Shown: positions 3 to 50,900 of the stretch, one piece after another
Numbering within the stretch: the first letter of the stretch is position 1
Layout: each line of letters starts with the position of its first letter
Origin: Cryomorphaceae bacterium
Lineage (GTDB): Bacteria; Bacteroidota; Bacteroidia; Flavobacteriales; ECT2AJA-044
NCBI GenBank assembly: GCA_017798125.1
Contig: CP059070.1
Coordinates: 2,294,001 to 2,358,000 of the forward strand
Reading direction: 5' to 3'
Length of the DNA stretch: 64,000 bases
Program-made: the position numbers and the translations under genes
Notes under the pieces: generated by a model
Told to the model about the DNA's origin: nothing
Seen by the model: only the letters and a program-made list of their open reading frames with translations
Databases searched by the model: none

Positions 3-170
3 CAGGTAACAGAGGCTACCCTGATCGACCTAAGTGGAAAGGCTATTCGCCAGTGGATGCTTCATCCAAATGATTTGATACCGATTCAAGGACTTGAGGC
101 TGGCCGATATCAGATTCGATTGAAATACCGCAACGGTGAATTGGCGATGGGCACATTCATCAAGCCGTAG
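3..170 (+). CDS. C-terminal fragment of a T9SS-sorted protein (5' end outside window)
   Basis: Only the last 55 codons are present and the frame is open to the left edge. The translated tail has the pattern of a type IX secretion C-terminal sorting domain: a beta strand (VTEATLIDLSGKAI), then IQGLEAGRYQIRLKYRNGE and a final short strand ending FIKP. Such tails route proteins through the outer membrane in gliding Bacteroidota and are then cleaved. The stop codon TAG lies inside a copy of the dispersed hairpin repeat, so the last residues (IKP) and the stop are written by the repeat. Nothing can be said about the catalytic or binding part. Confidence 0.6.
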   Translation, partial: QVTEATLIDLSGKAIRQWMLHPNDLIPIQGLEAGRYQIRLKYRNGELAMGTFIKP

Positions 171-174
171 GCTT
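158..174 (-). repeat. GATG hairpin repeat, copy 1
   Basis: CATC then AAGCC-GTA-GGCTT, perfect five-base arms. It supplies the TAG stop of the preceding T9SS protein. Confidence 0.55.
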
Positions 175-9182: not shown

Positions 9183-9199
9183 GCGCCTACGGCGCGATG
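9183..9199 (+). repeat. GATG hairpin repeat, copy 4
   Basis: GCGCC-TAC-GGCGC then GATG, perfect arms, preceded by TTT. It is intergenic between miaE and gcvT and is identical in the 17-nt core to the copy in RNase P RNA. Confidence 0.65.
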
Positions 9200-9844: not shown

Positions 9845-9861
9845 CATCGCGCCGTAGGCGC
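9845..9861 (-). repeat. GATG hairpin repeat, copy 5
   Basis: CATC then GCGCC-GTA-GGCGC, perfect. It sits between the stop of the beta-barrel gene and its terminator, in opposite orientation to copy 4. Confidence 0.65.
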
Positions 9862-15339: not shown

Positions 15340-15376
15340 AAAGCCGCCCTCCTTTTAGGAAGGCGGCTTTGTTTTT
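15340..15376. terminator. Terminator shared by trxB and rnpB
   Basis: AAAGCCGCC-TCC / GGA-GGCGGCTTT stem with a T run on the plus strand and an A run on the other side. It lies between two convergent transcripts. Confidence 0.85.
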
Positions 15377-15384
15377 GTCGGATA

Positions 15385-15755
15385 AAGGCGAACCTATAAG
15401 CCGGATTCTGTCCATCGCGCCGTAGGCGCAAAGTCTGTCATTTATCTAGCCGCACGCTCACGCGTACGATCGGCATCGACCTACCCCCCGGTTCGAGCGA
15501 GCAGCCCTCAATCCCGGTATACACGGTCTTTCAACCCATAGAGTTTACCCAGCTGCACCGGTTACCCGATGCACTGGTGGGCTCTTACCCCACCTTTTCA
15601 CCCTTACCCCGCAAGCGAGGCGGTTCTTTTCTGCGGCACTGGTCGTACCCCCGTATCCGATCGGAGGCCCTTCCCGTTAGGAAGTATGGTGCTCTGAGTT
15701 GTCCGGACTTTCCTCCCCCAGGCTAAGCCTGGCAGCGACAGAACGGTTCGCAAAA
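15385..15755 (-). ncRNA. rnpB: RNase P RNA, bacterial type A
   Basis: Catalytic RNA that matures tRNA 5' ends. On the minus strand the P4 5' element GAGGAAAGTCCGGAC and its 3' partner ACAGAATCCGGCTTAT are present, with conserved core segments GGGTAAGGGTGAAAAGGT and AAACTCTATGGGTTGAAAGACC. The ends are set by P1 pairing GCGAACC with GGTTCGC, and P2 by TCTGTC with GACAGA. Between the P2 and P4 3' strands, at the usual place of helix P19, sits a perfect copy of the dispersed hairpin repeat. It follows the Smr gene directly, so its promoter must lie in that gene. The ends are accurate to a few nucleotides. Confidence 0.93.
15413..15429 (-). repeat. GATG hairpin repeat, copy 6, inside RNase P RNA
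   Basis: CATC then GCGCC-GTA-GGCGC, perfect arms. In RNA sense it reads TTTGCGCC-TAC-GGCGCGATGG, filling the P19 position of rnpB. The 17-nt core is identical to copies 4, 5 and 9. Confidence 0.7.
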
Positions 15756-16342: not shown

Positions 16343-17431
16343 ATGAAACGCTTGATGCGCCGAATCGTTCTATTTTCCCTCTTCGCATTTTTGGCCGGGT
16401 GTTCTTCTGAGCCCAGTCAGAAAGGTTCTACCCAGCCTCAAAAAGAGAAGCTGCCCACGGCTTTTCGTTTGAGTACCGAGACTACCGTTCCCTTGCTGCA
16501 GCAAGGCGATACGCTCGTTATTGACGTTGAGCGAGTCGATGAGAGCATTCTTTTTGACCAGTGGCAGTGGACGGTAAATGGACGGCCTACGGCCGGATCA
16601 GAAAGCGGACTACTCTGGTTCAGCACAGGAATGCGCTTAGGAGAGTATGCCTTCACCTTGACCGGGACTACATCAGATGGGCGCACTCAGAGCAAGACCA
16701 TTATAAAGGAATTGGCGGCTTCCACAGAACCTGCTCAATACACCTATGAGCTCATTAAAGAGTACCCCCATGACCCAGATGCCTATACGCAGGGGTTCTT
16801 CTACCATGAAGGTGTCATGTATGAGGGAACAGGGCTCAAAGGTCAATCCAGCTTGAGAGAAGTTGACATTGAGACGGGGAAAATTTCGCGAAGCCACAAT
16901 ATTCCAGCGCGATTCTTCGGTGAGGGCATCACTATTTATGAAGATCGCCTATACCAGTTGACGTGGAAAGGACAAACCGGTTTTATATACGACCTTGAGA
17001 CCTTCACCCCGGTTGAAGAGTTCTACTACAACACGGAGGGCTGGGGACTGACGCACAACGACACTGCTCTGTTCATGACCGATGGAAGTCATCGAATCTA
17101 CGTGCTGGACCCGAAGACCATGACGCAAATCGACGTGATTCAGGTGTACAATGAACGAGCCCGGATGATCAACCTCAACGAATTGGAGTGGATCAACGGG
17201 GAACTCTGGGCCAACATCTATGGAACGCGGTATATCGCCCGTATCGATCCCAATTCAGGAGCAGTGACCGGCGTTATTGACTTCAACTCCATTTTTGATC
17301 GTCGGAGCTATCCACGCAGAACCGATGTCTTCAACGGCATAGCCTACAACGCCGAAACTGGGCACGTGTATGTGACGGGGAAACTTTGGCCAAGCGTGTA
17401 TGAAGTGCGCATCGTGCCGCAGGCACCCTAA
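16343..17431 (+). CDS. Glutaminyl-peptide cyclotransferase-like lipoprotein
   Basis: A 362-residue lipoprotein with signal [20 protein letters not shown] (lipobox LAGC). An N-terminal beta domain of about 110 residues is followed by a five-bladed propeller of the plant-type glutamine cyclotransferase family: [69 protein letters not shown] and [24 protein letters not shown]. The family converts N-terminal Gln to pyroglutamate. In Bacteroidota this may cap exported proteins whose signal-peptidase site leaves Gln at position 1, a frequent pattern here (SAQ, AQ). The last residues VPQAP are encoded by a hairpin repeat. Confidence 0.85.
16583..16599 (+). repeat. GATG hairpin repeat, copy 7
   Basis: CGGCC-TAC-GGCCG then GATC, perfect arms with last flank base changed. 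It encodes RPTAGS in the cyclotransferase N-terminal domain. Confidence 0.5.
17410..17426 (-). repeat. GATG hairpin repeat, copy 8
   Basis: CATC then GTGCC-GCA-GGCAC, perfect arms, at the very end of the cyclotransferase where it reads IVPQAP before the stop. Confidence 0.6.
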
Positions 17432-23129: not shown

Positions 23130-23628
23130 CCACCGATTCGTTCACGGGAAAAACTTCCCACCAGCAGGTGTATTTGCGGGTTATCTCCTTCTCGCGATGA
23201 GCGTGGTGAGCGTCTTTTTCAATCCCCTTGTGGCTCTTCTTCCCTTGGCCGGAGGAATTTTCCTAAGCTTTACTACCCTAGGTACCGAACTGGATCTCGA
23301 AAACGGAAGAATTCGAGAGTACACGCGGGTGTTCTGGATGGATCAAGGCACCTGGGAACCGTTGGAACATTTCCCGGATATGGCTGTGCTTCGAAAAACG
23401 CTCAGCCATACGATGTATTCGTACTACAGCAATCAGCGCATTGAGAATTCAGAGCGCGTTTTTGATGTATGTCTCTTGACGCCCAATCATCGGGAACGCC
23501 TGACCTTGTGCCGTTACCCGGATGTGGAACAGGCGCGTGAAGCCGCGGCTCATTGGGCCGAGGTCATCGGGAGTAACCTCACGTCGTTTAATCCTGAGGT
23601 CAGTGCTGCATCGCGCCGTAGGCGCTAA
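23122..23628 (+). CDS. Hypothetical membrane-associated protein ending in a repeat-encoded tail
   Basis: About 168 residues if it starts at TTG within TTGAATAG, overlapping the preceding stop; no ATG fits the N-terminus (NSHRFVHGKNFPPAGVFAGYLLLA). Two hydrophobic segments follow (VFAGYLLLAMSVVSVFF, PLVALLPLAGGIFLSF), then a soluble domain with LDLENGRIREYTRVF. I do not recognise the family. The last codons (A-S-R-R-R-R-stop) are written by a perfect copy of the hairpin repeat, so the basic tail is probably not ancestral. It is the last gene of the rlmD cluster. Confidence 0.65.
   Translation: MNSHRFVHGKNFPPAGVFAGYLLLAMSVVSVFFNPLVALLPLAGGIFLSFTTLGTELDLENGRIREYTRVFWMDQGTWEPLEHFPDMAVLRKTLSHTMYSYYSNQRIENSERVFDVCLLTPNHRERLTLCRYPDVEQAREAAAHWAEVIGSNLTSFNPEVSAASRRRR
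23609..23625 (-). repeat. GATG hairpin repeat, copy 9
   Basis: CATC then GCGCC-GTA-GGCGC, perfect arms, ending exactly one codon before the stop of the hypothetical protein and encoding SRRRR. Confidence 0.65.
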
Positions 23629-28531: not shown

Positions 28532-29117
28532 ACTCATAGTAGTCCTAATTTGTCTTTCGCTTTGGGCCTGCGGCCCGATGGAAGATCCATCCAGCTCCAA
28601 AAAGCAAGCAAGCGACATTCGACTACCCAAACATTCCATCTCTCTGATACCCGAACAAGGCCTGGTCTTCTTCGGGGATCAGATTTTCACGGGTACTGCC
28701 TATGAACGCTATCCCGATGGAATTCGGGCCGAAGAAGAGCAGTACGTTCACGGCGTTCGTCACGGGACCTGGAAGAAGTGGTTTCCTGACGGCACCTTGA
28801 GTTACGAGGCGCACTATGTTGACGGAAAGCTTCACGGAGAAGTCAAGTCCTGGTGGGCCAATGGAAATTTGCGTTCCCAAAGCCACTATAAAGACGGTAT
28901 CCCCCATGGCACGCAGCTTCAATGGTACACCAGCGGAGCGCTCTTAAAGCGACGCACACTGAATGAAGGGCTTGAAGAAGGCCTTCAGCAGTCTTGGAGA
29001 GAAAATGGAAAGATCTACAACAACTACGAAGCAAAAAACGGAAGAATCTTTGGCCTGAAACGGGCCAATCTATGTTACGAACTCAAAGATGAGAAAGTCC
29101 AATTTGCATCTGAATAA
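28518..29117 (+). CDS. MORN/YwqK-like repeat lipoprotein
   Basis: A 199-residue lipoprotein (MPFSKLIVVLICLSLWAC). The lipobox cysteine codon is the loop of a hairpin repeat copy. The mature part consists of tandem repeats of about 23 residues of the form YPDGxxxxxxxYxxGxxHGxW (YEAHYVDGKLHGEVKSWW, SHYKDGIPHGTQLQWY), as in the toxin-antitoxin YwqK family. Despite that name, a secreted structural or binding role is more likely. It overlaps the YHYH gene by 14 nt and the SCO gene by 29 nt. Confidence 0.82.
   Translation: MPFSKLIVVLICLSLWACGPMEDPSSSKKQASDIRLPKHSISLIPEQGLVFFGDQIFTGTAYERYPDGIRAEEEQYVHGVRHGTWKKWFPDGTLSYEAHYVDGKLHGEVKSWWANGNLRSQSHYKDGIPHGTQLQWYTSGALLKRRTLNEGLEEGLQQSWRENGKIYNNYEAKNGRIFGLKRANLCYELKDEKVQFASE
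28564..28580 (+). repeat. GATG hairpin repeat, copy 12
   Basis: GGGCC-TGC-GGCCC then GATG, perfect arms, preceded by TTT. The TGC loop is the lipobox cysteine codon of the YwqK-like lipoprotein (WACGPM). Confidence 0.6.
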
Positions 29118-30130: not shown

Positions 30131-30820
30131 ATGCGCATCGACATCATCACTGTATTGCCCGAGCTCTTGCACAGCCCTTTTGCGGCGAGCATCCTCAAGC
30201 GCGCTCAAGACAAAGGCCTGGTCGAAGTACACCTCCACGACCTCCGTCAATTCGGGCACGGCAAGCATCAACAAGTCGATGACTACCAGTACGGAGGAGG
30301 CGCTGGGATGGTACTGATGATCGAGCCCATTGCCGCTTGTATTGAGGCCCTACGGGCCGATCGTTCCTACGACGAGATCATTTACATGACTCCAGACGGC
30401 TCCACGCTCAATCAAGGAATCGCCAATGAGATCTCCCTTAAAAAGAACATCATTATCCTTTGCGGTCATTACAAAGGCGTGGATCAACGCGTCCGCGATC
30501 TCTTTGTGACGCGTGAAGTTTCCATTGGCGACTATGTACTTTCCGGCGGAGAATTGGCTGCTGCCGTCTTGGCTGACAGCATAATTCGCCTACTTCCAGG
30601 AGTGCTCAACGATGAAACCAGCGCGTTGAGCGACACTTTTCAAGACGACATGCTAGCCCCGCCTGTCTACACCAGACCCCCTGAATATCAAGGAAGTAAA
30701 GTGCCGGACATCCTCTTGAGCGGGGACCATAAAGGAGTGGATCGCTGGCGACAAGAGCAAGCCGAAGAGCGCACACAAAACCTCCGGCCGGATTTGTGGA
30801 AAAAAGGGCATAGCGAATAG
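30131..30820 (+). CDS. trmD: tRNA (guanine-N1)-methyltransferase
   Basis: SPOUT enzyme that methylates G37 of tRNAs reading CNN codons, including tRNA-Pro and tRNA-Leu. Landmarks are [27 protein letters not shown], the SAM knot [13 protein letters not shown], and [17 protein letters not shown] at the C-terminus. The length of 229 residues is typical. The loop [12 protein letters not shown] is written by a hairpin repeat copy, at a site that varies between species. It directly precedes rplS, a conserved pairing. Confidence 0.97.
30346..30362 (+). repeat. GATG hairpin repeat, copy 13
   Basis: GGCCC-TAC-GGGCC then GATC, perfect arms. It encodes ALRAD in a variable loop of TrmD. Confidence 0.5.
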
Positions 30821-37005: not shown

Positions 37006-38008
37006 CCACTGGAGACCGTTTACATCTGAAGACTGCGCCCGTTTGACCCATACCCGTGAAGGGGAAGTCAAGCTGGGACAACGGGTGTCTTGTGCCGATC
37101 AGGGACTTTTGGAGTCCTTAGAGGCCAGCGATGCACGTTATGTGCTCATCGGCCTCCCGGAAGACGTGGGTGTCCGTGCGAACGGAGGACGACCCGGTGC
37201 GGCGAGCGCTTGGGAGGTAAGTCTCCCCCATTTTCTAAACGTACAGAGCAACGAGTACCTGGATGGTGCTCAGGTGCTTGTCCTTGGGGCCCTGCGGGCC
37301 GATGATTGGCAAGCCGAAGCCCAGTCTGCTTCCCTCCCGCGATTGCGAGAAATGACCGCTGAGATTGACGAGGCCCTATGGCCACTGATCGAACGCATTG
37401 CCGCATTGGGAAAAACGGCCTTGGTCATTGGCGGTGGACACAACAACAGCTACGGCTGCTTGCGTGGGGTTTCACAGGCCATCGGACGGCCCGTACACTG
37501 CGTCAATATCGATCCGCACGCGGATTACCGCAGCTTGGAAGGAAGACACAGTGGAAATGGCTTTCGGTATGCCCGCGAAGAGGGATACTTGGACCGATAC
37601 GCCGTATTTGGTCTACATGAGGGGTACAATTCAGCAGAAATGCTGTCGTTGATGAAAGAACCTAGTCATACGTGGTACAAGTCTTTTGAGCATTTGTCCT
37701 TTGGACATTTGCCCTACATCGATCATTGGGATGAGATCTGGACGCGCTTTGGTCGCGAAAAGGTCGGATTGGAGATCGATATGGACGGGGTTACCAATTT
37801 CCCATCCAGCGCGGATACCCCGAGCGGATGGAGCTTGAATGAAGTGCGTCAAATGATCGTGGCCCTGGGTCATCTCAAGGCGCATGTACCGTACCTGCAT
37901 ATAGCCGAAGCGGCGCCTTCATTGGTGCCTGGTTCGGACCGAACAGTGGGCCGCGCTTTAGCGCTTCTGCTCTGCGATTTCATTAAAAGCGGCGCTGGCC
38001 GGCATTAA
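36992..38008 (+). CDS. hutG: Formimidoylglutamase-like arginase-family hydrolase
   Basis: A 338-residue ureohydrolase. Manganese ligands are visible as GGGHNNSYGCLRG (first His), NIDPHADYRSLEGRHSG (Asp-x-His-x-Asp) and LEIDMDGVTNFPSSADTP (the last Asp pair). Position after hutI with a 14-nt overlap supports formimidoylglutamase, which releases formamide from formiminoglutamate; arginase or agmatinase is less likely in this context. A hairpin repeat copy encodes ALRAD in LGALRADDWQAE. The start ATG was chosen for family length. Confidence 0.9.
   Translation: MTWTDHWRPFTSEDCARLTHTREGEVKLGQRVSCADQGLLESLEASDARYVLIGLPEDVGVRANGGRPGAASAWEVSLPHFLNVQSNEYLDGAQVLVLGALRADDWQAEAQSASLPRLREMTAEIDEALWPLIERIAALGKTALVIGGGHNNSYGCLRGVSQAIGRPVHCVNIDPHADYRSLEGRHSGNGFRYAREEGYLDRYAVFGLHEGYNSAEMLSLMKEPSHTWYKSFEHLSFGHLPYIDHWDEIWTRFGREKVGLEIDMDGVTNFPSSADTPSGWSLNEVRQMIVALGHLKAHVPYLHIAEAAPSLVPGSDRTVGRALALLLCDFIKSGAGRH
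37288..37304 (+). repeat. GATG hairpin repeat, copy 16
   Basis: GGCCC-TGC-GGGCC then GATG, perfect arms. It encodes ALRADD in HutG. Confidence 0.55.
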
Positions 38009-38047: not shown

Positions 38048-40009
38048 ATGATCACCGAAAAGAATTTACGCAACCTACTCTCCTCCCTTTTCCTATTGTT
38101 TTCCGCGGCGTCACTCATCGTGCCGCAGGCACAAAACTTTGATTTTCGCGGTGCACAGTTCACCTTCACTTGGAACGGAGGTAATGCAAGCCCGGTCTGT
38201 GGAGACAACGCTTTGACCTTTGATTACACGGGTTCCGTAGTGGTTGATTCACTTTTCTGGGACTTCGATGATGCTTTGGCAGGAACGGCCAGCAACGGAT
38301 CAGGAACACCCATCAGCTATCAGTTTTTGAATGCGGGTACCTACGACGTTTCGGTGACTGGATTTGACGTAGCTGGGGTTGCTGTGGGCAATACCTCTAA
38401 CTCCATTGACGTCGCACTAACGCCACCCACTGCAGTTTCAGCCCCGACGATCTGTACCAACGGAACTTTAGTTCTCGACGCCACTCAGCCTTTCAGCACC
38501 TATTCTTGGACGCCTGGAGGAAGTGTAGCCCCGACTTATACCGCTACAGCGGCGGATACGGTGGTCACTTGTGTGGTCACCAATATTTGCGGTTCGGGCA
38601 CCTTGACCTTCAACCTACAGCACATCGATTCAGTCTTCGTTGACATATTGGACTTTGTCATCTGCCCTGGGGACATCATTCCTATTTTGGACGCTATTCA
38701 GCCGGCCAGCGCACAGCCTGTGAGTTACTTGTGGAGTAGTGGTTCTACTGCCGCAACAGACACCATCATTACTCAGGGAACCTACTGGGTGAGCATGACC
38801 AACCCGTGTGGTAGCTACGTCGATACCTTTATCGCGACCACGCCTCCGCCGTTGACGGTGGACGTGGGACCGGACACCTTGATTTGCCAGGGACAATCCT
38901 ACACCATTACGGCAACAACCAATCAGCCCAACGTTCAGTTCCAATGGATGGGGAACCCGAACAACGGAGGAACCACCTTTACTGTGAATTCGGGAGGAAC
39001 GTACTGGGTAGCCGCAACCAACGACTGCGAGTTCGTATACGACACCATTGTCATTTCTCAACCACAGTCCTTCATTCTTGATCTCGGGAACGATACCATC
39101 ATCTGTAATGGCGATCAAATCGTACTCGATCCAGGACTTGGTGGTGCTCCCTACATCTACGATTGGGACGACGGTTCGAACGATAGTATCCGCGTGGTGA
39201 CCACTGCAGGAACCTATTTTGTGGAAGTTATGGACAGCTGCTCTACGCAGTACGATACCATTGTGATTTCCACTCCACCAGCATTCACTTTTGATTTAGG
39301 GAACGACACTACATTCTGTGCAGCAGACAACATAGTTTTGGATCCCGGTTTGGTTGGACCTCAGTACAACTACGTATGGCAAGACGGTTCCACAACGGCT
39401 ACCTACACAGTAACAGATGTCGGAACGTACTCCGTAACCGTTACGGATGAATGTGTCAGTGTCTCCGATGCCATAACCTTTACACCGTTTACGGGCTTTG
39501 AAGTCACCCTTGGAAACGACACCACTATTTGTGACGGACAGAGCTTCCAGCTTCAAGTGAGCTTCCCGAATTCGACCTACCTCTGGCAAGATGGAACAAC
39601 AACACCGACGTATACCGTAACTGATCCGGGTGACTATTATGTCACCATCTTCAACGTGTGTGATACCGTGATGTCGGATACTTTGACTACGGAAGTAGAT
39701 CCGTGCTCGTGCAATATGTACGTTCCCAATGCCTTTACTCCAAACGTAGATGGCAAGAACGAAATCTTCAGACCCGTAACAGACTTTACCAGTTGTGTGG
39801 TTCTGGAGTTCGAAATGCGCATCTTCAACCGTTGGGGACAGGAACTCTTCGTTTCGACCAGCATTGCAGATGGTTGGGATGGAACGTTTAACGGCGAGTA
39901 CCTCATGGACAATGTCTATTTCTATGAGATCATCTACAGCGTCCGAAATCAAGGGGATACCCGCGTCAAGCAAGACCGACTGACCGGAAACCTCTTCATG
40001 ATCCGATAG
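38048..40009 (+). CDS. Secreted protein with gliding-motility (type B) C-terminal domain
   Basis: A 653-residue exported protein. The signal peptide (NLLSSLFLLFSAASLIVPQAQ) ends in residues written by a hairpin repeat. A PKD-like domain comes first (DYTGSVVVDSLFWDFDDALAG), then about five Ig-like repeats of some 75 residues sharing the phrases LGNDTTIC and TVTDxGTYxVTVTDxC. The C-terminus is the type B gliding-motility sorting domain: YVPNAFTPNVDGKNEIF, EFEMRIFNRWGQELF, GWDGTFNGEYL, VYFYEIIY. The role is probably a surface adhesin or matrix protein. GTG six nt upstream is an alternative start. Confidence 0.9.
   Translation: MITEKNLRNLLSSLFLLFSAASLIVPQAQNFDFRGAQFTFTWNGGNASPVCGDNALTFDYTGSVVVDSLFWDFDDALAGTASNGSGTPISYQFLNAGTYDVSVTGFDVAGVAVGNTSNSIDVALTPPTAVSAPTICTNGTLVLDATQPFSTYSWTPGGSVAPTYTATAADTVVTCVVTNICGSGTLTFNLQHIDSVFVDILDFVICPGDIIPILDAIQPASAQPVSYLWSSGSTAATDTIITQGTYWVSMTNPCGSYVDTFIATTPPPLTVDVGPDTLICQGQSYTITATTNQPNVQFQWMGNPNNGGTTFTVNSGGTYWVAATNDCEFVYDTIVISQPQSFILDLGNDTIICNGDQIVLDPGLGGAPYIYDWDDGSNDSIRVVTTAGTYFVEVMDSCSTQYDTIVISTPPAFTFDLGNDTTFCAADNIVLDPGLVGPQYNYVWQDGSTTATYTVTDVGTYSVTVTDECVSVSDAITFTPFTGFEVTLGNDTTICDGQSFQLQVSFPNSTYLWQDGTTTPTYTVTDPGDYYVTIFNVCDTVMSDTLTTEVDPCSCNMYVPNAFTPNVDGKNEIFRPVTDFTSCVVLEFEMRIFNRWGQELFVSTSIADGWDGTFNGEYLMDNVYFYEIIYSVRNQGDTRVKQDRLTGNLFMIR
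38116..38132 (-). repeat. GATG hairpin repeat, copy 17
   Basis: CATC then GTGCC-GCA-GGCAC, perfect arms, identical to copy 8. It encodes IVPQAQ at the signal-peptide cleavage site. Confidence 0.6.
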
Positions 40010-40011
40010 GC

Positions 40012-41574
40012 ATGCCTTCGCCTCTGCAGCTGCGCGTTCGCCCCGAAGTGGCGGGCACCCCTGAATTGCTGGATGAGGCAGTTTCCGAAGCTTTGGGCCT
40101 ACGGCCCGATGCCCCTCTTCCCCCATACCGCATCGATCGCAGATCCATCGACGCTCGTGGTCGATCCGTTTGGATCAACCTGCGCCTGGACGTATTTGAG
40201 CCTTCCGAAGAAATTCCGCGTCGATACCACGAGCCTGTTGCTCGCGATGTCCAATACGCTCCAGAAGTCATCATCATCGGTGCTGGCCCTGCGGGACTTT
40301 TCGCGGCCCTCGAACTTATAGAACTGGGTTTAAGGCCAATCATCCTGGAGCGCGGAAAGAACGTTCGCGCCCGTCGCCGCGATCTCGCTGCCCTGAATAA
40401 GGAACACATCGTTGATCCCGACTCCAACTACTGTTTCGGAGAAGGTGGTGCTGGAACCTACAGCGATGGTAAGCTGTACACACGTTCCAAGAAACGCGGG
40501 CACATCTCCAAGGTCTTAGAACTCTTGGTAGCCTTTGGAGCCCCTGAGGACATCCTAGTCGATGCCCACCCTCATATTGGGACCAATAAGCTTCCGCAAG
40601 TAATCACGGCCATTCGCGAGTTCATCGAATCATGCGGTGGCGAAGTGCGTTTCGAAACCCGGGTCACAGAATTCCTGGTCAAGAACGGTGCGTGCACCGG
40701 TGTTCGCGATCAATCGGGCACATCACACACCGGGATCGCATCCATTCTCGCTACAGGCCACAGCGCTCGCGATATATTCAAGCAACTGCACCATCAAGGC
40801 ATTCTGGTCGAATTAAAACCCTTTGCTCTTGGCGTACGGGTCGAGCACCCACAAGCACAAATCGACTCCATTCAATACCACTGCAAAACCCGCTCACCTT
40901 ATCTTCCCCCATCTTCCTACGGACTGGTTCATCAAGTTCGCGAAAGAGGTGTTTACAGCTTCTGCATGTGCCCAGGAGGCATTATTGCGCCCTGCGCTAC
41001 CGCGCCGGGAGAAGTAGTCACGAACGGTTGGTCCCCTTCCAAACGAAACAATCCCTATGCCAACAGCGGTATTGTCGTAGAGCTTCAAGCGTCGGATTTT
41101 GCCGCCTACGAATCTGAGGGTCCCCTCGCCGCCTTGGCTTTTCAGGCCTCTGTAGAGCAAAAATGCTGGGAAGCGGCCGGTCAAACCCAAGCTGTTCCAG
41201 CACAGCGACTCACCGACTTTGTTAACAAAAGGCGGTCTACGACCGTGGCGCCTTCCTCCTACCAACCGGGCGTTACACCGACAGAAATCAATGAATTATT
41301 GCCACCCGATGTCGCGGCCCGATTAAGGGGCGGATTCACGGCCTTTGGAAAAAAGATGCGCGGATACCTTACCGCCGATGCAGTCGTACACGCAACGGAG
41401 TCCCGCACCAGTTCCCCAGTCCGCATTCCGCGTGATCGTGAAACCTTGGAACACCCTCAGATTTCAGGGCTTTATCCTTGCGGTGAAGGAGGTGGATACG
41501 CTGGAGGAATTGTCTCAGCCGCCATGGACGGTCAAAAAGTGGCCACAGCCATCGCCGCCGCGGTAGTGAAATGA
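40012..41574 (+). CDS. COG2509-type FAD-dependent dehydrogenase
   Basis: A 520-residue flavoprotein. A small N-terminal domain of about 90 residues precedes the FAD-binding Rossmann motif VIIIGAGPAGLFAALELIELG, then YCFGEGGAGTYSDGKLYTRSKKRG, a family signature, and the late closure SGLYPCGEGGGYAGGIVSAAMDG. The family is widespread and uncharacterised; members have been placed near electron-transfer or anaerobic functions, but no substrate is established. The start codon follows the previous stop by two nt. A hairpin repeat encodes GLRPD in the N-terminal domain (SEALGLRPDAPLPP). Confidence 0.9.
   Translation: MPSPLQLRVRPEVAGTPELLDEAVSEALGLRPDAPLPPYRIDRRSIDARGRSVWINLRLDVFEPSEEIPRRYHEPVARDVQYAPEVIIIGAGPAGLFAALELIELGLRPIILERGKNVRARRRDLAALNKEHIVDPDSNYCFGEGGAGTYSDGKLYTRSKKRGHISKVLELLVAFGAPEDILVDAHPHIGTNKLPQVITAIREFIESCGGEVRFETRVTEFLVKNGACTGVRDQSGTSHTGIASILATGHSARDIFKQLHHQGILVELKPFALGVRVEHPQAQIDSIQYHCKTRSPYLPPSSYGLVHQVRERGVYSFCMCPGGIIAPCATAPGEVVTNGWSPSKRNNPYANSGIVVELQASDFAAYESEGPLAALAFQASVEQKCWEAAGQTQAVPAQRLTDFVNKRRSTTVAPSSYQPGVTPTEINELLPPDVAARLRGGFTAFGKKMRGYLTADAVVHATESRTSSPVRIPRDRETLEHPQISGLYPCGEGGGYAGGIVSAAMDGQKVATAIAAAVVK
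40095..40111 (+). repeat. GATG hairpin repeat, copy 18
   Basis: GGGCC-TAC-GGCCC then GATG, perfect arms, preceded by TTT. It encodes GLRPDA in the COG2509 flavoprotein. Confidence 0.6.
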
Positions 41575-42553: not shown

Positions 42554-44755
42554 ATGACGCAAAAGCCCCGCATACGGATTCAGTGGGGTCGTTTTTTTCC
42601 GATCCAGCTGCTGGCACTTCATTTCAAGAGAAGCCTTATTCTTCTCTTGTTCTGGATATTGCTGTTCGGTTTTGTCACAAAACTTTTCGCCCAGTCGTAC
42701 GGCATTCCACTCCTGTTCCTTGCTCCAGAGTATATGGGAACAGTGGGCTGGTTGTCCTTTTTTCTGCTCGGCGTCTTTACGGGCCTGTTCTTTATGGCTT
42801 TCCATGTGAGCACGTATATCTACTACAGCCATAAATTCACTTTCCTAGCTACCCTTCAACAACCGCTGTACCGATTCAGCATCAACAATTCCCTGCTGCC
42901 CTTCTCCTTCTCTCTTGTGTATCTATACTTCAGCTACCAGTATCAGACAGGCGAGGAACAAATCGCGCCGTTGAAGGCGCTGCTCCATCTATTTGCTTGG
43001 ATTTTCGGATCTGTGGTGAGTATTTCCATTACGTTCACCTACTTCTTCAACGCGAACCGAAACGTATTCCGCGGGCTTGAGCAGTCCTTGAACCGTCCGT
43101 TGAACCTTCTGGTCAAACGCGACCGAGATACCTCCAGTCTCTCCGAACACACCAAGACACAGTACTACCTCCGTAATTTCTTTACCCTGAGGATTGTGCG
43201 TTCCACAGACCACTACCCAAAGGGCACCCTCATACGGATCCTAGACAAGCATCACCGGAACGCCGCCTTGTTCATCTTGGTCATCTTTCTGGTCATTCTT
43301 GGCTTCGGCATCCTTCGTGAACAAGAATGGGCGAATATCCCAGCGGCGGGCAGCATTTTCCTACTTTTTACGATGTACCTCATGCTCACGGCAGTCTTAC
43401 ATTCCTGGTTTAGGAGCTGGTACGCCTTTGGTGTGGCCGTTGTGCTAATTTGTATACAGTGGTTATCACATTACCCGCTTTTCGAAAAAGTCAATCACGC
43501 TTTTGGCTTGGACTATAAAGCTGCCCCGGCTCCTTACCGATTCGAAGACTTAGTTCCCCTCACTACCGACAGTATCTACACCTATGATCGGAATCTAGAA
43601 CTCCAAGCTCTTCAAGGCTGGCACGCTCAAACCAGGAAAACAAAGCCCAAACTCATCATTGTCAACACCTCAGGAGGAGGGCTTCGCTCAGCACTCTTCA
43701 CCTTTGAGATGATGCATGTCCTAGACAGCGTAACGGAGGGTGCCTTTTTCAAACAAACAAGGCTTATTACCGGAGCATCGGGAGGAATGATGGGGGCTGC
43801 CTATTACCGGGGGCTCAAACACGAAGACTCCTTGGATTCCGTTTCCATAGATCTCCTTCAAGACTGCTTGAGCACGGACATGCTCAATCCAATTGTCTTT
43901 GGATTAGTCACCAACGACTTATTCTTCAATACGCTTCATTGGCGCACTGGCAATCAGCGCTACAACAAGGACCGCGGATATTCCTTCGAACAAGCCCTGC
44001 ATCGCAATACCCTGGGCATTCTCGACGTGCCACTAAGCTATTACCGAAATCCGGAGCTAAGCGGTTCTATCCCTAAAATGGTCTTTTCACCCATTATCGT
44101 CAATGATGGTCGTCGCCTGAACATTTCGAGCAGCCCCACCTCCTATCTTTCTTTGGTGGGTCCGAACAACGAACGTCCTGAATACCATGACGGAATTGAG
44201 TTTAGCCGTTTCTTTGAGGCCCTACGGGCCGATAGCCTTCGCTTCTCAACAGCTATCCGCATGAGTGCTTCCTTTCCGTACATCACACCGCTCATCAACC
44301 TGCCAAGCAAGCCCGCTATGGAACTGATTGATGCAGGTGCTCGAGACAACAACGGATTTGAGCTTAGTATGCGGTACGCTTACCACTTCAACGAATGGCT
44401 CAATCGATTTACTTCAGGAATTGTCTTTGTGCGCCTACGGAGCGATGGCTTGAATGATGCCCGAATCCGGGATGAACATAAACGCGGTGTTTTCGAAAAC
44501 CTCTTCAACCCTGTAAGCGGTGTGGTCAAAAGCTTCGACAACATGCAGGATTTCAATCAAAGTCAATTGTTGCTTCTTGCCGACGAATGGTGCAATGTCC
44601 CCATTGACGTCATTGAGTTCAATCTATTTGAGGAAGAAGAAGCGGTGAGCTTGAGTTGGCATCTTTCAACAAGTGAAAAAGCCCAAGTCCGATCCTCCAT
44701 CTTCTCGGAAGCCAATTCAGCCAAAACGAAAGAGCTCATTCAACTATTGGATTGA
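42554..44755 (+). CDS. Patatin-like phospholipase with multi-helix membrane domain
   Basis: A 733-residue protein. The first about 320 residues hold several membrane helices (LILLLFWILLFGFVTKLF, GWLSFFLLGVFTGLFFMAF, FILVIFLVILGFGIL, SIFLLFTMYLMLTAVL). The C-terminal patatin domain has the oxyanion loop NTSGGGLRSAL, the nucleophile elbow ITGASGGMMG (Ser409) and the catalytic aspartate in LIDAGARDNNG (Asp593). It should hydrolyse acyl esters of phospholipids at the inner membrane. Two hairpin repeat copies encode ALRAD and RLRSD. It is the last gene of the cluster from the NTF2-like gene. Confidence 0.88.
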   Translation: MTQKPRIRIQWGRFFPIQLLALHFKRSLILLLFWILLFGFVTKLFAQSYGIPLLFLAPEYMGTVGWLSFFLLGVFTGLFFMAFHVSTYIYYSHKFTFLATLQQPLYRFSINNSLLPFSFSLVYLYFSYQYQTGEEQIAPLKALLHLFAWIFGSVVSISITFTYFFNANRNVFRGLEQSLNRPLNLLVKRDRDTSSLSEHTKTQYYLRNFFTLRIVRSTDHYPKGTLIRILDKHHRNAALFILVIFLVILGFGILREQEWANIPAAGSIFLLFTMYLMLTAVLHSWFRSWYAFGVAVVLICIQWLSHYPLFEKVNHAFGLDYKAAPAPYRFEDLVPLTTDSIYTYDRNLELQALQGWHAQTRKTKPKLIIVNTSGGGLRSALFTFEMMHVLDSVTEGAFFKQTRLITGASGGMMGAAYYRGLKHEDSLDSVSIDLLQDCLSTDMLNPIVFGLVTNDLFFNTLHWRTGNQRYNKDRGYSFEQALHRNTLGILDVPLSYYRNPELSGSIPKMVFSPIIVNDGRRLNISSSPTSYLSLVGPNNERPEYHDGIEFSRFFEALRADSLRFSTAIRMSASFPYITPLINLPSKPAMELIDAGARDNNGFELSMRYAYHFNEWLNRFTSGIVFVRLRSDGLNDARIRDEHKRGVFENLFNPVSGVVKSFDNMQDFNQSQLLLLADEWCNVPIDVIEFNLFEEEEAVSLSWHLSTSEKAQVRSSIFSEANSAKTKELIQLLD
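44218..44234 (+). repeat. GATG hairpin repeat, copy 19
   Basis: GGCCC-TAC-GGGCC then GATA, perfect arms. It encodes ALRAD in the patatin protein. Confidence 0.45.
44431..44447 (+). repeat. GATG hairpin repeat, copy 20
   Basis: GCGCC-TAC-GGAGC then GATG, one mismatched pair. It encodes RLRSDG in the patatin protein. Confidence 0.5.
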
Positions 44756-44933: not shown

Positions 44934-47900
44934 TTACTTCTCGATCACAATTCGCTTAACGCTGCTGTGTCCTTCCGCAGTTACACGGATGAAGTAAACG
45001 CCGTTTTCAACATTCTCCAAGTTGTAGTTGCGCTCGAAGATTGCACCGTTCGTGTGCTCAACTTCTTCTTCCATGATCAATCGACCACGAGCATCGGTAA
45101 TCGCCACCTCTACGTTGTCAGCACTCAACTGAGCAATGCTCAATTCGAAGCTTCCGCGGTTCGGGTTAGGATATACCTCAATGGTTTCGTTGGTCAACTC
45201 ATCCTCCAAGCTCACGTAGCTCGCTACGAACTGCGCACTTGTAGAAGTACAACCTGTAACTGGATCTTCTACTTCAACGAAGTATACATTGAATCCAACA
45301 CATGGAGTTGTAATGGTCGAACCAGATCCAACCACGTTTCCTTGATCATCCAACCAAGTGTAGACTGGGTTAGTCACACTAGACTGTACAATCAAATCAC
45401 AACCGTTTTGCAAGATGATCGGAGCCGCTGGATCCGCATTCACATTTTGCTGTTGGCTAGCTGAGTTAGTACAACCTGTTGCTGGGTCTGTGTACGTATA
45501 CGTGATGGTGTACGTTCCAGGAGCAACAATGGTAGGATCGAATGTATCTCCATTGACAATACCAGGTCCACTGAAGGTACCACCTGCAGGGCTACCGGTC
45601 ATCGCCACTGGCGCTGCACTAGCACATACATCTCCAATACCGCTGAAGCTTACATTAGGCAAGGCGTCAACTGTAATGGTCGTCGTTGCCGTTCCAACAC
45701 AACCTTCTGGATTCGTGTAGGTGTAGGTAATGGTATGTGTACCTGAACCCGCAGCAACTGGATCAAAGGTGTTACCCGATACTCCAGGACCACTGTAAAC
45801 ACCACCTCCAGGAGATGCTCCAGAAATCAAAACTGGACTTGCATCAGCACAAACATTTCCTTGAGCAGCCAAGCTCACCACAGGAGCTGGAGTAACTACG
45901 ATGGTCGAAGTACTTGATGCAGGACATCCGTCCGCACTTGTATAGGTATAGGTCAATACATGCGTACCTGCACCGGCCGCGGCGGGATCAAAGTTTCCAC
46001 CGCTAACTCCAGGACCGCTCCAGTTTCCACCTGCTGGTGTAGCACCAGAAAGAGCGAATGAAGCAGCACTAGCACAAGTGTTGGCCAAGGTCGGAGTACT
46101 TACAGATGGAACCGCATTAACTGTAATAGTCGCTTGGAATGCAATAGGACATCCAGAGACACTCAAGGTCTCGTAGTCAAGCGTATATGTTCCAGGTCCC
46201 ACTTGAGCAGGATAGAACACTCCACCATTAACACCAGGACCGGTATACGTACCTCCCGGAGGAATTGCACCAGTCAATGTCACTGCACCTGCATCGGTAC
46301 ATACATCTGGAATTGGCAAGTGGAATCCAATCGACGCTTGATTTACGATGATCTGCGTACTTGCAGAGCTCGTACATCCATTCGCATCCGTATAGGTATA
46401 CAAGATGTTGTGTGGTCCTTGACCAGCAGCAGCTGGATCAAAGATTCCATTAGATACCCCGTTACCACTATAGGTACCTCCTACTGGAGCACCAACAGTC
46501 AAAGCAAACGGTGCATCTGCAGCACATACATCTGCCAAAGCTCCCATCGTTACCGTAGGTATATCGGATACAATTAGGTCCGTAGTAGCTGAAGCCTCAC
46601 AACCATTTGCATTTACGTAAGTATATGTCAAGGTGTGCGTTCCAACTCCAGCAGCAGCTGGGTCAAACATTGCTCCAGTTACACCAGCTCCAGAATAAGT
46701 TCCACCAGCTGGTGAACCTTGCGTAAGCATAACAGCTCCTCCATCCACACATTGGTTAGGTACAACACCGAATTGAACGTTTGGTAAATCATTCACATAT
46801 ACAGTGATATACTCTACTTTCTGAGAGAAGGTATCATCTACATAGAAAGAATAAGTAGTCGTCACGATAGGTGATGAGCTCGTATTCAACGTATTGATAT
46901 CTGTTACATACGAACTTGGAGTCCACAAGAAACTATACGTCGTATCAGAACCTCCGGTTACAGAAGCTGACAATTGTACAGTCTCACCAACACAAATGGT
47001 GTCTTTATCAACAGACAAAAGGATCTCAATTGGTCCACCGAAGATGGTAACATTGACGGTATCGTATCCACGACATCCCGTTACATTGTCAATTGCTTCA
47101 ACTACGAACTGCTGGTCAACGGTCAATGGTCCAGTAGTCACTTGATTACCAATTCCGGCACCTAAGATGCTATCTGCTGGAGACCAAGAATACGTGTAGT
47201 TTCCACTACCGCCAGTTGCGACCGCACTTAGTTGGGTACCCGTACCAAAGACAACGGTTACATCCGGAGAAGCAGTCACCGAAGGAATCTCGTTCACTGT
47301 CATCACCAATTGATCAAACGTTGCACAACTTCCAGACGTCACAGTATATCGCAAAGTGTGATTTCCAACACCAGCAATTGAAGGATCAAAAGTTCCATTC
47401 ACTACACCCGGACCGCTGAATACTCCTCCTGCTGGAGAACCATTTAGGGCTACGATTGAGTCATTAACACCGCAGAATGAGGTTTGAGGTGCGTTCAATG
47501 TAACGTTAGGCGTTGGAATCAAATTCACTGAAGCTGAATCCATAGCGGTACATCCCGTGGCCGGATCGGTATACGTGTAGTACAAGGTATAGGTACCAGG
47601 TACTCCGATCTGCGCAGGAACAAAGTCAGTTCCTACAATTCCAGGACCAGTGAATACACCACCAGTAGGACTCGCTGTGGTAATGGTGAAACCATTCTGT
47701 CCATCACAGTATGATCCAAGGTCACCAAATACAACATTTGGGAATGGATTGACAGTGATGTCCACTGTACCTGGGCAAGATGTTCCGAAGGCATTAGTAA
47801 CAGTATAGTTCAAGGTATAAGTACCTGGCTGTACAGATGTTGGGTCAAAAACGTTTCCAGTAAGACCAGGGCCAGAGAATACACCACCAGCTGGCATTCC

Positions 47901-50900
47901 TGTCAACGTAATGAGACTTCCATCAGGACAAGACATTGTCTCCGTTGCAGTCACAGAAGGACAATCAGTCGTAAAGGCAGCAGGCCCTGCGTTTTGAGAC
48001 AATCCATCCCCAGTTCCATTACAGTCGTTCTGAACATAGAATTCGTAGTCTGCTCCTACTTCAAGTCCGGAAATACTGAGAGGGCTTCCTCCTGCAATAA
48101 CTGAAGTTCCTGTTCCTGGTGCAAAACCAGCAGGACCGTATTCTACAATGAACGTATCTCCTGGGCCGTTCCAGCTCAAATCAGCTGAGGTTTGACCCGT
48201 GGCCACAGCACTTAACAAGAATGGCGTCGGACAATCTGCCTCTTTTACTTCAAAGTCATCGATGTACAAAGCAAACTGATCCGCATCAGAATAACCGTGC
48301 AATCCGATAAAGATGTTCTCGGCCGCAATAGTGGTGTAAGAAACCGTTACTGTCTTATAGAAGCTGTTCTGAAGGTTTGGAACATCGAACAGTTTCAAGT
48401 TCATACCAGCTGGATCCTGAGAATTACCAACGAATACTTCGAGTTTCTCAACATACTGGTTGGTACGAACACGATAGCTAAATGTGATATCCAAAGACGT
48501 GTTCGCCGGAACGATAAACTCTGGAGAGAAGATCCAGTCATCCATGTCCGTAGAGGTATTTCGCTCTATCTCCAATGCATTCGGGTTTGATTGAGAAAGG
48601 GATGAACGATCCTGACCTTCCCAAACAATTGCATCAACATTGGCATCGTCTACCAACCATCCACAAGGAATTCTAGGAGCTCCAAGTGCATCGAAGTTTT
48701 CATTGTATGGCAAAGCGCTAAATGGAATCGCCACTGGAGGTGGGCAATAACTCGTCGCTTGAGTAGCACTTGCACCTGCGCTTACACCAAACCCACAATC
48801 TTGATAGACGTAGATATCGTAAGAAGTTTCAGGAGTCAAACCTGATGCAGTGTAAGAGGTTCCGGAAACCGCAGTTCCTGATCCAGTTGGGGCAGTTCCT
48901 GAGGTAACAATTTCAACTTGATAGTTGCTTCCGGATCCTGTCCATGAAACATCAAATGAAGTATCGAATACATTGGATACAGAGACATTTGAAGGAGCTG
49001 GACATACATTATCCACTTTTACTTCGTCAATCGCCATATCACCAGTACAACATCCTCCTACAGTATGAATTCCAACAAATTGAATCTCGATATCTCCTGA
49101 ATATCCACTCAGTGAAGCCGAAGCTGGGGCCCAAGCATCTGCCGAACTCGTCTGTTGTTGGCCGCTTAACGACCATATTGTATTCCAAGTTGCGGAACCT
49201 GCATTTCTTACTTGTACTTCAAGTGTACCAGTATTCGCTCCGAACATATGGTAGAAAAACTCAATACCTGGGTTCGACAACGCACTAATGTTAATTACAG
49301 GTAAAATCAGGTAAGTCTCATCACCAGCCGTTCCACCAGAGGTTTCGACATACGCATACTGCCCGGGGCCGCTAACATCATTATTCGGCCCGGTAGGAGA
49401 AGAACCCGTTGGTCCATCTTCAATTTGCCAATTCGGGTCGAATAAATCAGGAAGCACCTGCCAACAAGGGTCAAAGGTCGTTAGTGCACCCCAAGTTGGT
49501 CCATCAAAGTTCTCTGCAAATGGAGCAGTGAAACCTGCACACGGAGTAGAGAATGTTGGCCCTTGAACACGTCCAGTTCCATTTCCTGAACAATTTGAGG
49601 TGACATAGACATCGTAAGTCGTTTGAGCAGATAATCCTGAAACGGTTGCAGTAGTCCCTGAAACTCCCGTAAGTGTAGCAACAGCAGGATCCACATCAGG
49701 ATCATCCCCTGAAGCCCAAACCCCTACGTCATAAGTAAGAGCCGCTGGAGAAGCTGTCCAGCTTAGGGAAACACTTGAAGACGTGGAGGCGTCAACTGTA
49801 ACACCAGATGGAGCTGTACAAGGAGCTTCGCCAAAAGTAATTTCATCAAGAGCCATATCCGATCTAAAACTAGATCCAGTTGTTCCAATGAATCGAGCTC
49901 GAACATTATCCCCTGCGTATGCACTGAGGTCCACTGCAGCTTGGAACCAACTGTTTCCTTGATCCCCGGATAATGTCCAAACTTGGGTCCAGTTTGAAGA
50001 GGCTGAGGAAATTTCTAGTGACAAGGAACCCATGTTGCTTCCATACATATGGTAATAGAAACTTATCGATGGAGCCACAAGTCCGGATAAATCAACACAT
50101 TCCGATACAAGAATTGCGGTGTTAAACGAGCAACTCGAGGATTCTAAGAAAATATAATTCCCCGTGCCGTCAAGGTCCCCCGGAGGACCGGTAAGGCTAG
50201 ATCCTGTAGATGATGATCTTGCCGTCCATTCAATGTCATCATTGGATATGTTTGAAAACAATCCTGAGGAAATATTATCGGTCGTTATACAAGAGAAAAT
50301 GCCCGCATTATTCGGTGTAAGAAGATCAAAATCCTCTGTCACCGGAGCCACAACGGGTGAGGCACATAAGAATACATCTGGAGTCGTAAAAGACGCTGAT
50401 GATCCAAATGGCTGCATTGCTCCCGGTCCGGTGCAAAATTCCGCGACGTAAACGTCGTAGTTCGTATTCGAACTTAAGGTCAATCCTGTAAAGACGTAGC
50501 TCGTAGAAGTAACCCCATTAGCAGAAGCTACGGGGATAGTTGAATTTGGATCAGCTCCAGCGTCAACAATTACTAAGTCCCATGGCCCATTAGCATTTCC
50601 TCCAGGAGTCCATTGAACATCTACAGAAGCAGCTGATGCTGAGTTCACAGTCATCCCTGTCGCGTTGATACAATCACAAAAATCAGATTGGAAGTTTTCT
50701 GATGTCTCCAATTCGAAGTTGTTACCACCACCGGTTCCATTATTGGGAGTGGCTCCACCATTATTTGCCAAGATACTACCAGACGATTCACAAGTGACAG
50801 AGTATGTTCCTCCATTCCACCCGTCACCCCAAGAATCGTAGGCATTAAAGGTGTAAACCTCGCCATCCATGAGGCAGGCTTCCGCTGCGTAGTTTGTATT

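Follow-up and report, generated by a model that had tools for sequence, protein, structure and literature searches.

We analysed a 64,000-nucleotide stretch of contig CP059070.1 from a Cryomorphaceae bacterium (positions 2,294,001 to 2,358,000; hereafter the window), which carries on its minus strand rnpB, the gene for class A RNase P RNA. An Rfam profile search matched window positions 15754-15381 to RF00010 with a score of 243 bits, covering model positions 1-367 of 367, and the following elements were placed within the gene:

15381..15754, minus strand: rnpB, class A RNase P RNA (RF00010, 243 bits, full model)
15434..15439, minus strand: 3' strand of P2, GACAGA, paired with TCTGTC at 15742-15737 in the Rfam structure line
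15430..15433, minus strand: lead CTTT (C then TTT) before the P19 motif copy, read from the sequence
15413..15429, minus strand: P19, a motif copy GCGCC-TAC-GGCGC-GATG, exact family consensus, with a fold of -10.6 kcal/mol
15400..15411, minus strand: 3' side of P4, ACAGAATCCGGC, from the Rfam alignment

On the RNA strand, the segment between the 3' strands of P2 and P4 reads C-TTT-GCGCC-TAC-GGCGC-GATG-G, followed by ACAGAATCCGGC. Both the Rfam alignment and the fold of this segment on its own (z -2.9) identify the hairpin between the two strands as the P19 helix of a class A RNase P RNA, confirming the sequence-only reading, which had placed a hairpin repeat at this position. The same reading had noted a core shared with intergenic repeats, and the 13-mer GCGCC-TAC-GGCGC indeed recurs exactly at 9183 (plus), 9849 (minus) and 23613 (minus), each time with GATG after it; the TTT lead is likewise common to the P19 copy and the copy at 9183. 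The P19 copy has the same sequence as the commonest variant of the family. Between rnpB and the neighbouring trxB-like gene lies a strong hairpin, AAAGCCGCCCTCCTTTTAGGAAGGCGGCTTT (window 15340-15373), apparently a bidirectional terminator shared by the two genes, and a similar one is present in the congener G001. Elsewhere in the order, one genome carries a second RF00010 match of 67.6 bits, below the cut-off, beside a normal rnpB (G079:C1:3786745-3786947), possibly an rnpB fragment or a decayed copy.

The family to which the P19 hairpin belongs follows the motif TTT-GNNCC-T(N)RC-GGN'N'C-GAT(G), about 17 nt long, with a T-rich lead, a 5-bp stem, a loop T(N)RC and a tail GAT(G). We estimate about 680 copies in the source genome, from stretches not picked for copies, and about 560 in G001, a figure that derives partly from copy-picked stretches and may be high. 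Across roughly 525 further genomes from the order and class, the motif occurs only at chance level. The exact 13-mer is found 80 times in the source genome, 32 times in G001 and 0-1 times in 146 order genomes, its reversed control being absent from the genus, and within the window seven matches with at most two mismatches were found where 0.74 are expected by chance. A further sequence, GCCTRCGGCNNGATG, occurs 237 times in the source genome and 170 times in G001, is absent from the 146 order genomes and is no more frequent than chance in about 380 genomes of the class. Searches of viral contigs returned no matches, and no similar kind of signal was detected in five other order genomes, sampled at 80 kb each.

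Motif analysis was performed on sampled stretches, 474 kb of the source genome and 274 kb of G001, where retrieval through CCTRCGG-NNN-GAT, which put no constraint on the three outer pairs, gave 110 and 39 copies, respectively. Of the 110, 105 have a Watson-Crick pair 2, where shuffling gives 30 on average and 47 at most; the count is likewise 105 for pair 3 (shuffles 62) and 95 for pair 1 (shuffles 74). Tails other than GAT yield 0-3 copies, none of them with a perfect stem. Loops are TAC or TGC, with a four-base form that is TCAC in the source genome and TCGC in G001 (p 2e-7). The two species also differ in the bottom pair (p 7e-5) and in the flank: beyond the T-rich lead on the 5' side, the element is extended on the 3' side by a consensus that is GATGNGCAAC in G001 and a C-rich stretch in the source genome (G000), so that each species has its own dialect. 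Copies occur at a density of roughly one per 4 kb and are spaced more regularly than random (CV 0.77, p 0.005; some of the stretches were picked for containing copies); the exact copies listed favour neither strand in any obvious way along the chromosome. One pair is arranged tail to tail, 6 nt apart, as GGCCC.TGC.GGGCC.GATG-GCCCAG-CATC.GCGCC.GTA.GGCGC (G000:C1:510189-510228; L069 189-228), in a BIME-like fashion.

Copies in the window, besides that in rnpB, lie both between and inside genes:

158..174, minus strand: copy AAGCC.TAC.GGCTT.GATG
9183..9199, plus strand: intergenic copy GCGCC.TAC.GGCGC.GATG with TTT lead
9845..9861, minus strand: intergenic copy GCGCC.TAC.GGCGC.GATG
17410..17426, minus strand: copy at a gene 3' end; the G001 ortholog has a 4-nt loop, with stem and GATG kept
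23609..23625, minus strand: copy where two convergent genes meet at their 3' ends; the orthologous G001 site also has one
28564..28580, plus strand: intergenic copy GGGCC.TGC.GGCCC.GATG
30346..30362, plus strand: sense copy in a tRNA (m1G) methyltransferase gene; ortholog CGCCC.TGC.GGGCG
37288..37304, plus strand: sense copy in an arginase-family gene; missing at the G001 ortholog with net length unchanged
38116..38132, minus strand: antisense copy within a gene, with compensation in the ortholog (GTGCC/GGCAC vs CTGCC/GGCAG)
40095..40111, plus strand: sense copy in an FAD-dependent oxidoreductase gene; conserved in G001
44218..44234, plus strand: sense copy in a patatin-like gene; missing in G001, gapless
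44431..44447, plus strand: further copy in this patatin-like gene; partial match in G001
54093..54110, plus strand: copy with a 4-nt loop in a dehydrogenase E1/transketolase gene, antisense; G001 retains it
58091..58107, minus strand: sense copy in a GH3/beta-lactamase-domain gene; G001 retains it

The earlier picture of an intergenic repeat holds as to the repeat itself; beyond it, many copies sit within genes, and stem changes on one side are matched on the other. The window further contains a single open frame of 2665 codons (44934-52931, minus strand), encoding a very large protein.

Gene interiors hold 70 of 116 copies in the source genome (38 sense, 32 antisense) and 39 of 51 in G001 (18 sense, 21 antisense), according to gene calls that are approximate, coming from a home-made scorer, and Pfam-confirmed for eight host genes only; these include a tRNA (m1G) methyltransferase, an arginase-family protein, a GH3 enzyme and a dicarboxylate symporter. 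In the source genome, copies are enriched about 2.6-fold in DNA that is intergenic or at gene edges. Coding sequences contain 57 sense and 42 antisense copies; when synonymous codons are shuffled with proteins and codon usage held, 0.7 and 0.45 are left, respectively, which rejects chance or codon usage as the cause of the intragenic copies and shows that protein sequence does not account for the signal. Those intragenic copies that were checked in Pfam-confirmed genes are all in one common frame, with x-L-R-x-D or x-L-R-x-E encoded by those in sense; among the sense copies checked in window genes, this is the imprint of the signal on the proteome.

Syntenic alignments of the source genome with G001, covering about 209 kb, revealed same-site copies whose stems had been compensated (GTGCC/GGCAC vs CTGCC/GGCAG; GGCCC/GGGCC vs CGCCC/GGGCG). 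Of 70 ungapped orthologous sites, 30 retain a perfect stem, against 15 of the 151 hairpins used as a control (p 6e-8). At sites that preserve the core, 13 outer pairs have changed, 9 of them on both sides with pairing retained; the p of 2e-6 against the control rate is indicative, the control hairpins not having been selected for a kept core. When all sites are taken together, the share of compensated pairs does not differ from that of the control (p 0.87), because gains and losses make up most of the changed sites, and the difference is confined to the core-kept sites. Among sites gained or lost in coding sequence, 27 of 33 are gapless and 30 of 33 show no net length change, and the motif is often half-formed in the other species, a pattern that points to stepwise substitution in place. 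Three of ten intergenic gain/loss sites are longer by 12-25 nt, so that insertion is compatible with intergenic sites.

We then consider how rnpB came to carry a copy. A P19 hairpin is present in nearly all rnpB loci fetched from the order, and none has the GCGCC-TAC-GGCGC sequence; one locus (L021) has only a very short hairpin, and for one of ten P19 segments folded alone (L033, GACGTGGATTGTTTCGGCAATAACAGAA) an alternative pairing is predicted. In G001 the order thioredoxin reductase, rnpB, next gene is preserved at about 73-78% DNA identity, and its P19 reads AG-CCTGC-UUCG-GCAGG-AU, 18 nt as against 22 nt in the source genome. This comparison with relatives shows that no single P19 is common to the Flavobacteriales, as both G001 and the other order genomes examined differ from the source. 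From the hairpins in nearly all relatives and the kept synteny, the P19 helix is judged ancestral, its sequence here being either peculiar to the source lineage or lost in G001, and with a genus sample of two genomes, G000 and G001, gain here and loss there are both compatible. Several relatives have GG-AUG or GG-AU adjoining ACAGAA in P19, and in three rnpB loci of family f15 (L022, L027, L034) the helix ends GG-AUG-ACAGAA; part of the motif tail may thus be ancestral in P19, and an earlier hairpin with a similar tail was probably already in place.

The sequence-only reading had proposed that the repeat either replaced P19 or arose from it. This is partly supported: a genuine family member does occupy the P19 position, but insertion of the repeat there is doubtful and its origin in P19 is not supported. 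That P19 was the origin from which the repeat spread might be suggested by the identity of the P19 copy with the commonest variant; this is most improbable and we rejected P19 as the source, since G001, with its roughly 560 copies, has CCTGC-UUCG-GCAGG at P19 and rnpB outside the genus is without the motif. Insertion into P19 sits poorly with coding gain/loss sites that mostly show no length change, and with a P19 only 4 nt longer than that of G001. Such insertion would be expected of a mobile hairpin, that is, a palindromic element moved by a trans-acting transposase that entered P19 and replaced the old helix. The motif resembles REP sequences and Rickettsia palindromic elements, which also occur in RNA genes, in being a short hairpin with a fixed flanking tetranucleotide, present in hundreds of copies and enriched in intergenic DNA, and the longer intergenic sites and the BIME-like pair would fit. 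We nevertheless consider this unlikely: the Y1/RAYT transposase (PF01797) was found in five controls and in neither G000 nor G001, the copies are not mostly extragenic as REP sequences are, the coding sites are gapless with half-formed intermediates rather than inserted into genes in the Rickettsia manner, and copies at orthologous sites are old, their stems being compensated and their dialects distinct. No reverse transcriptase that might drive the repeat was found either.

Bacterial stem-loop families offer a broader comparison, as they are likewise repeated families with a common hairpin, but two thirds of them share structure and are intergenic (PMC2267715), whereas the present motif lies largely in genes and is defined more by structure than by sequence. 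A highly iterated palindrome of the HIP1 type, maintained by a bias linked to methylases or repair, would account for a palindrome found throughout both genic and intergenic DNA, with gain and loss in place and lineage-specific alternates, as described for HIPs (PMC4390886); those, however, are fixed 8-mers tied to methylases, whereas this stem varies freely as long as it pairs, which a double-strand methylase would not need, and has an asymmetric tail and a lead, making this explanation very unlikely. Another DNA-level signal of replication or repair (Chi-like, primosome assembly or a chromosome-organising hairpin) would suit a copy every 4 kb or so at even spacing, although Chi and KOPS are fixed sequences without covariation and the listed exact copies lack an obvious chromosomal strand bias; we regard it as rather unlikely. 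If the hairpin instead acted in transcripts, as a binding, processing or pausing site of which rnpB carries one, its specific loop and tail and the sense orientation of the rnpB copy, which forms in RNA, would be explained. The balance of orientations inside genes argues against a messenger-RNA role, and we find an RNA-level element quite unlikely.

What remains in favour is a DNA-level recognition signal with P19 as one of its host sites, to which we assign a probability of about one half. Its descriptive part very probably holds: P19 is one copy of a genus-specific, covarying signal of about 17 nt, present at the DNA level in some 680 copies, changing in place and divided into dialects. As the stem bases covary, and covariation needs intrastrand pairing, the signal is read as a nucleic-acid structure; as copies lie in both orientations inside genes, it acts in DNA. 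Taken together, the covariation, the balanced orientation, the in-place change, dialects and spacing, and the lack of a transposase or reverse transcriptase favour this reading.

Among known systems, uptake sequences come closest. Such sequences are evenly spaced and arise in place, and our motif is also evenly spaced and changes in place. The DUS of Neisseriaceae (PMC3630211) and the USS of Pasteurellaceae (PMC2346458) occur hundreds to thousands of times, both within genes and between them, with a frame preference and species dialects; the motif matches in its hundreds of copies, in its occurrence within genes on either strand at levels that protein composition does not explain (57/42 vs 0.7/0.45), in its frame preference and in its dialects (loop TCAC vs TCGC, p 2e-7, and flank consensus), but differs in being a covarying hairpin (105 of 110 vs 30) where theirs is a fixed sequence. 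The likeliest process would be one that exposes single-stranded DNA of either strand, such as natural transformation, in which a putative trans-acting factor would favour DNA bearing the signal; the motif would then mark DNA for uptake or self-recognition by means of a hairpin, and biased recombination would have spread it. This mechanism we put forward only tentatively. ComEC is present, although to our knowledge it is nearly universal and its presence says little about an uptake signal; the uptake sequences known to us are read as double-stranded DNA, and we know of none that requires a hairpin.

P19 would be a permissive site for such a signal, its existing RNA hairpin doubling as a copy of the DNA signal. 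As a peripheral helix that tolerates sequence change and has only to form a hairpin, it could take up the motif, and the RNA role and the DNA signal would be compatible. The STRR repeats of cyanobacteria are reportedly tandem repeats of heptamer type, as opposed to the single covarying hairpin at P19 here. According to the passage of PMC2858038 that cites Vioque (1997), they too place a genomic repeat family inside an RNase P RNA gene.

These results describe how one bacterial genus carries, within hundreds of its genes, a DNA signal that is structured and covarying, differs in dialect between species and has a putative reader. That the genus reads the hairpin, through its structure, loop and tail, as a self-recognition or uptake signal, the first to be defined by intrastrand pairing rather than by a fixed sequence and with one copy serving in RNase P as P19, is a possibility we hold with slightly more reserve than the mechanism itself. 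If it is true as an uptake signal, the phenomenon would extend to the Bacteroidota and to hairpin recognition, and a catalytic RNA would be shown to host a genome signal within a tolerant helix.
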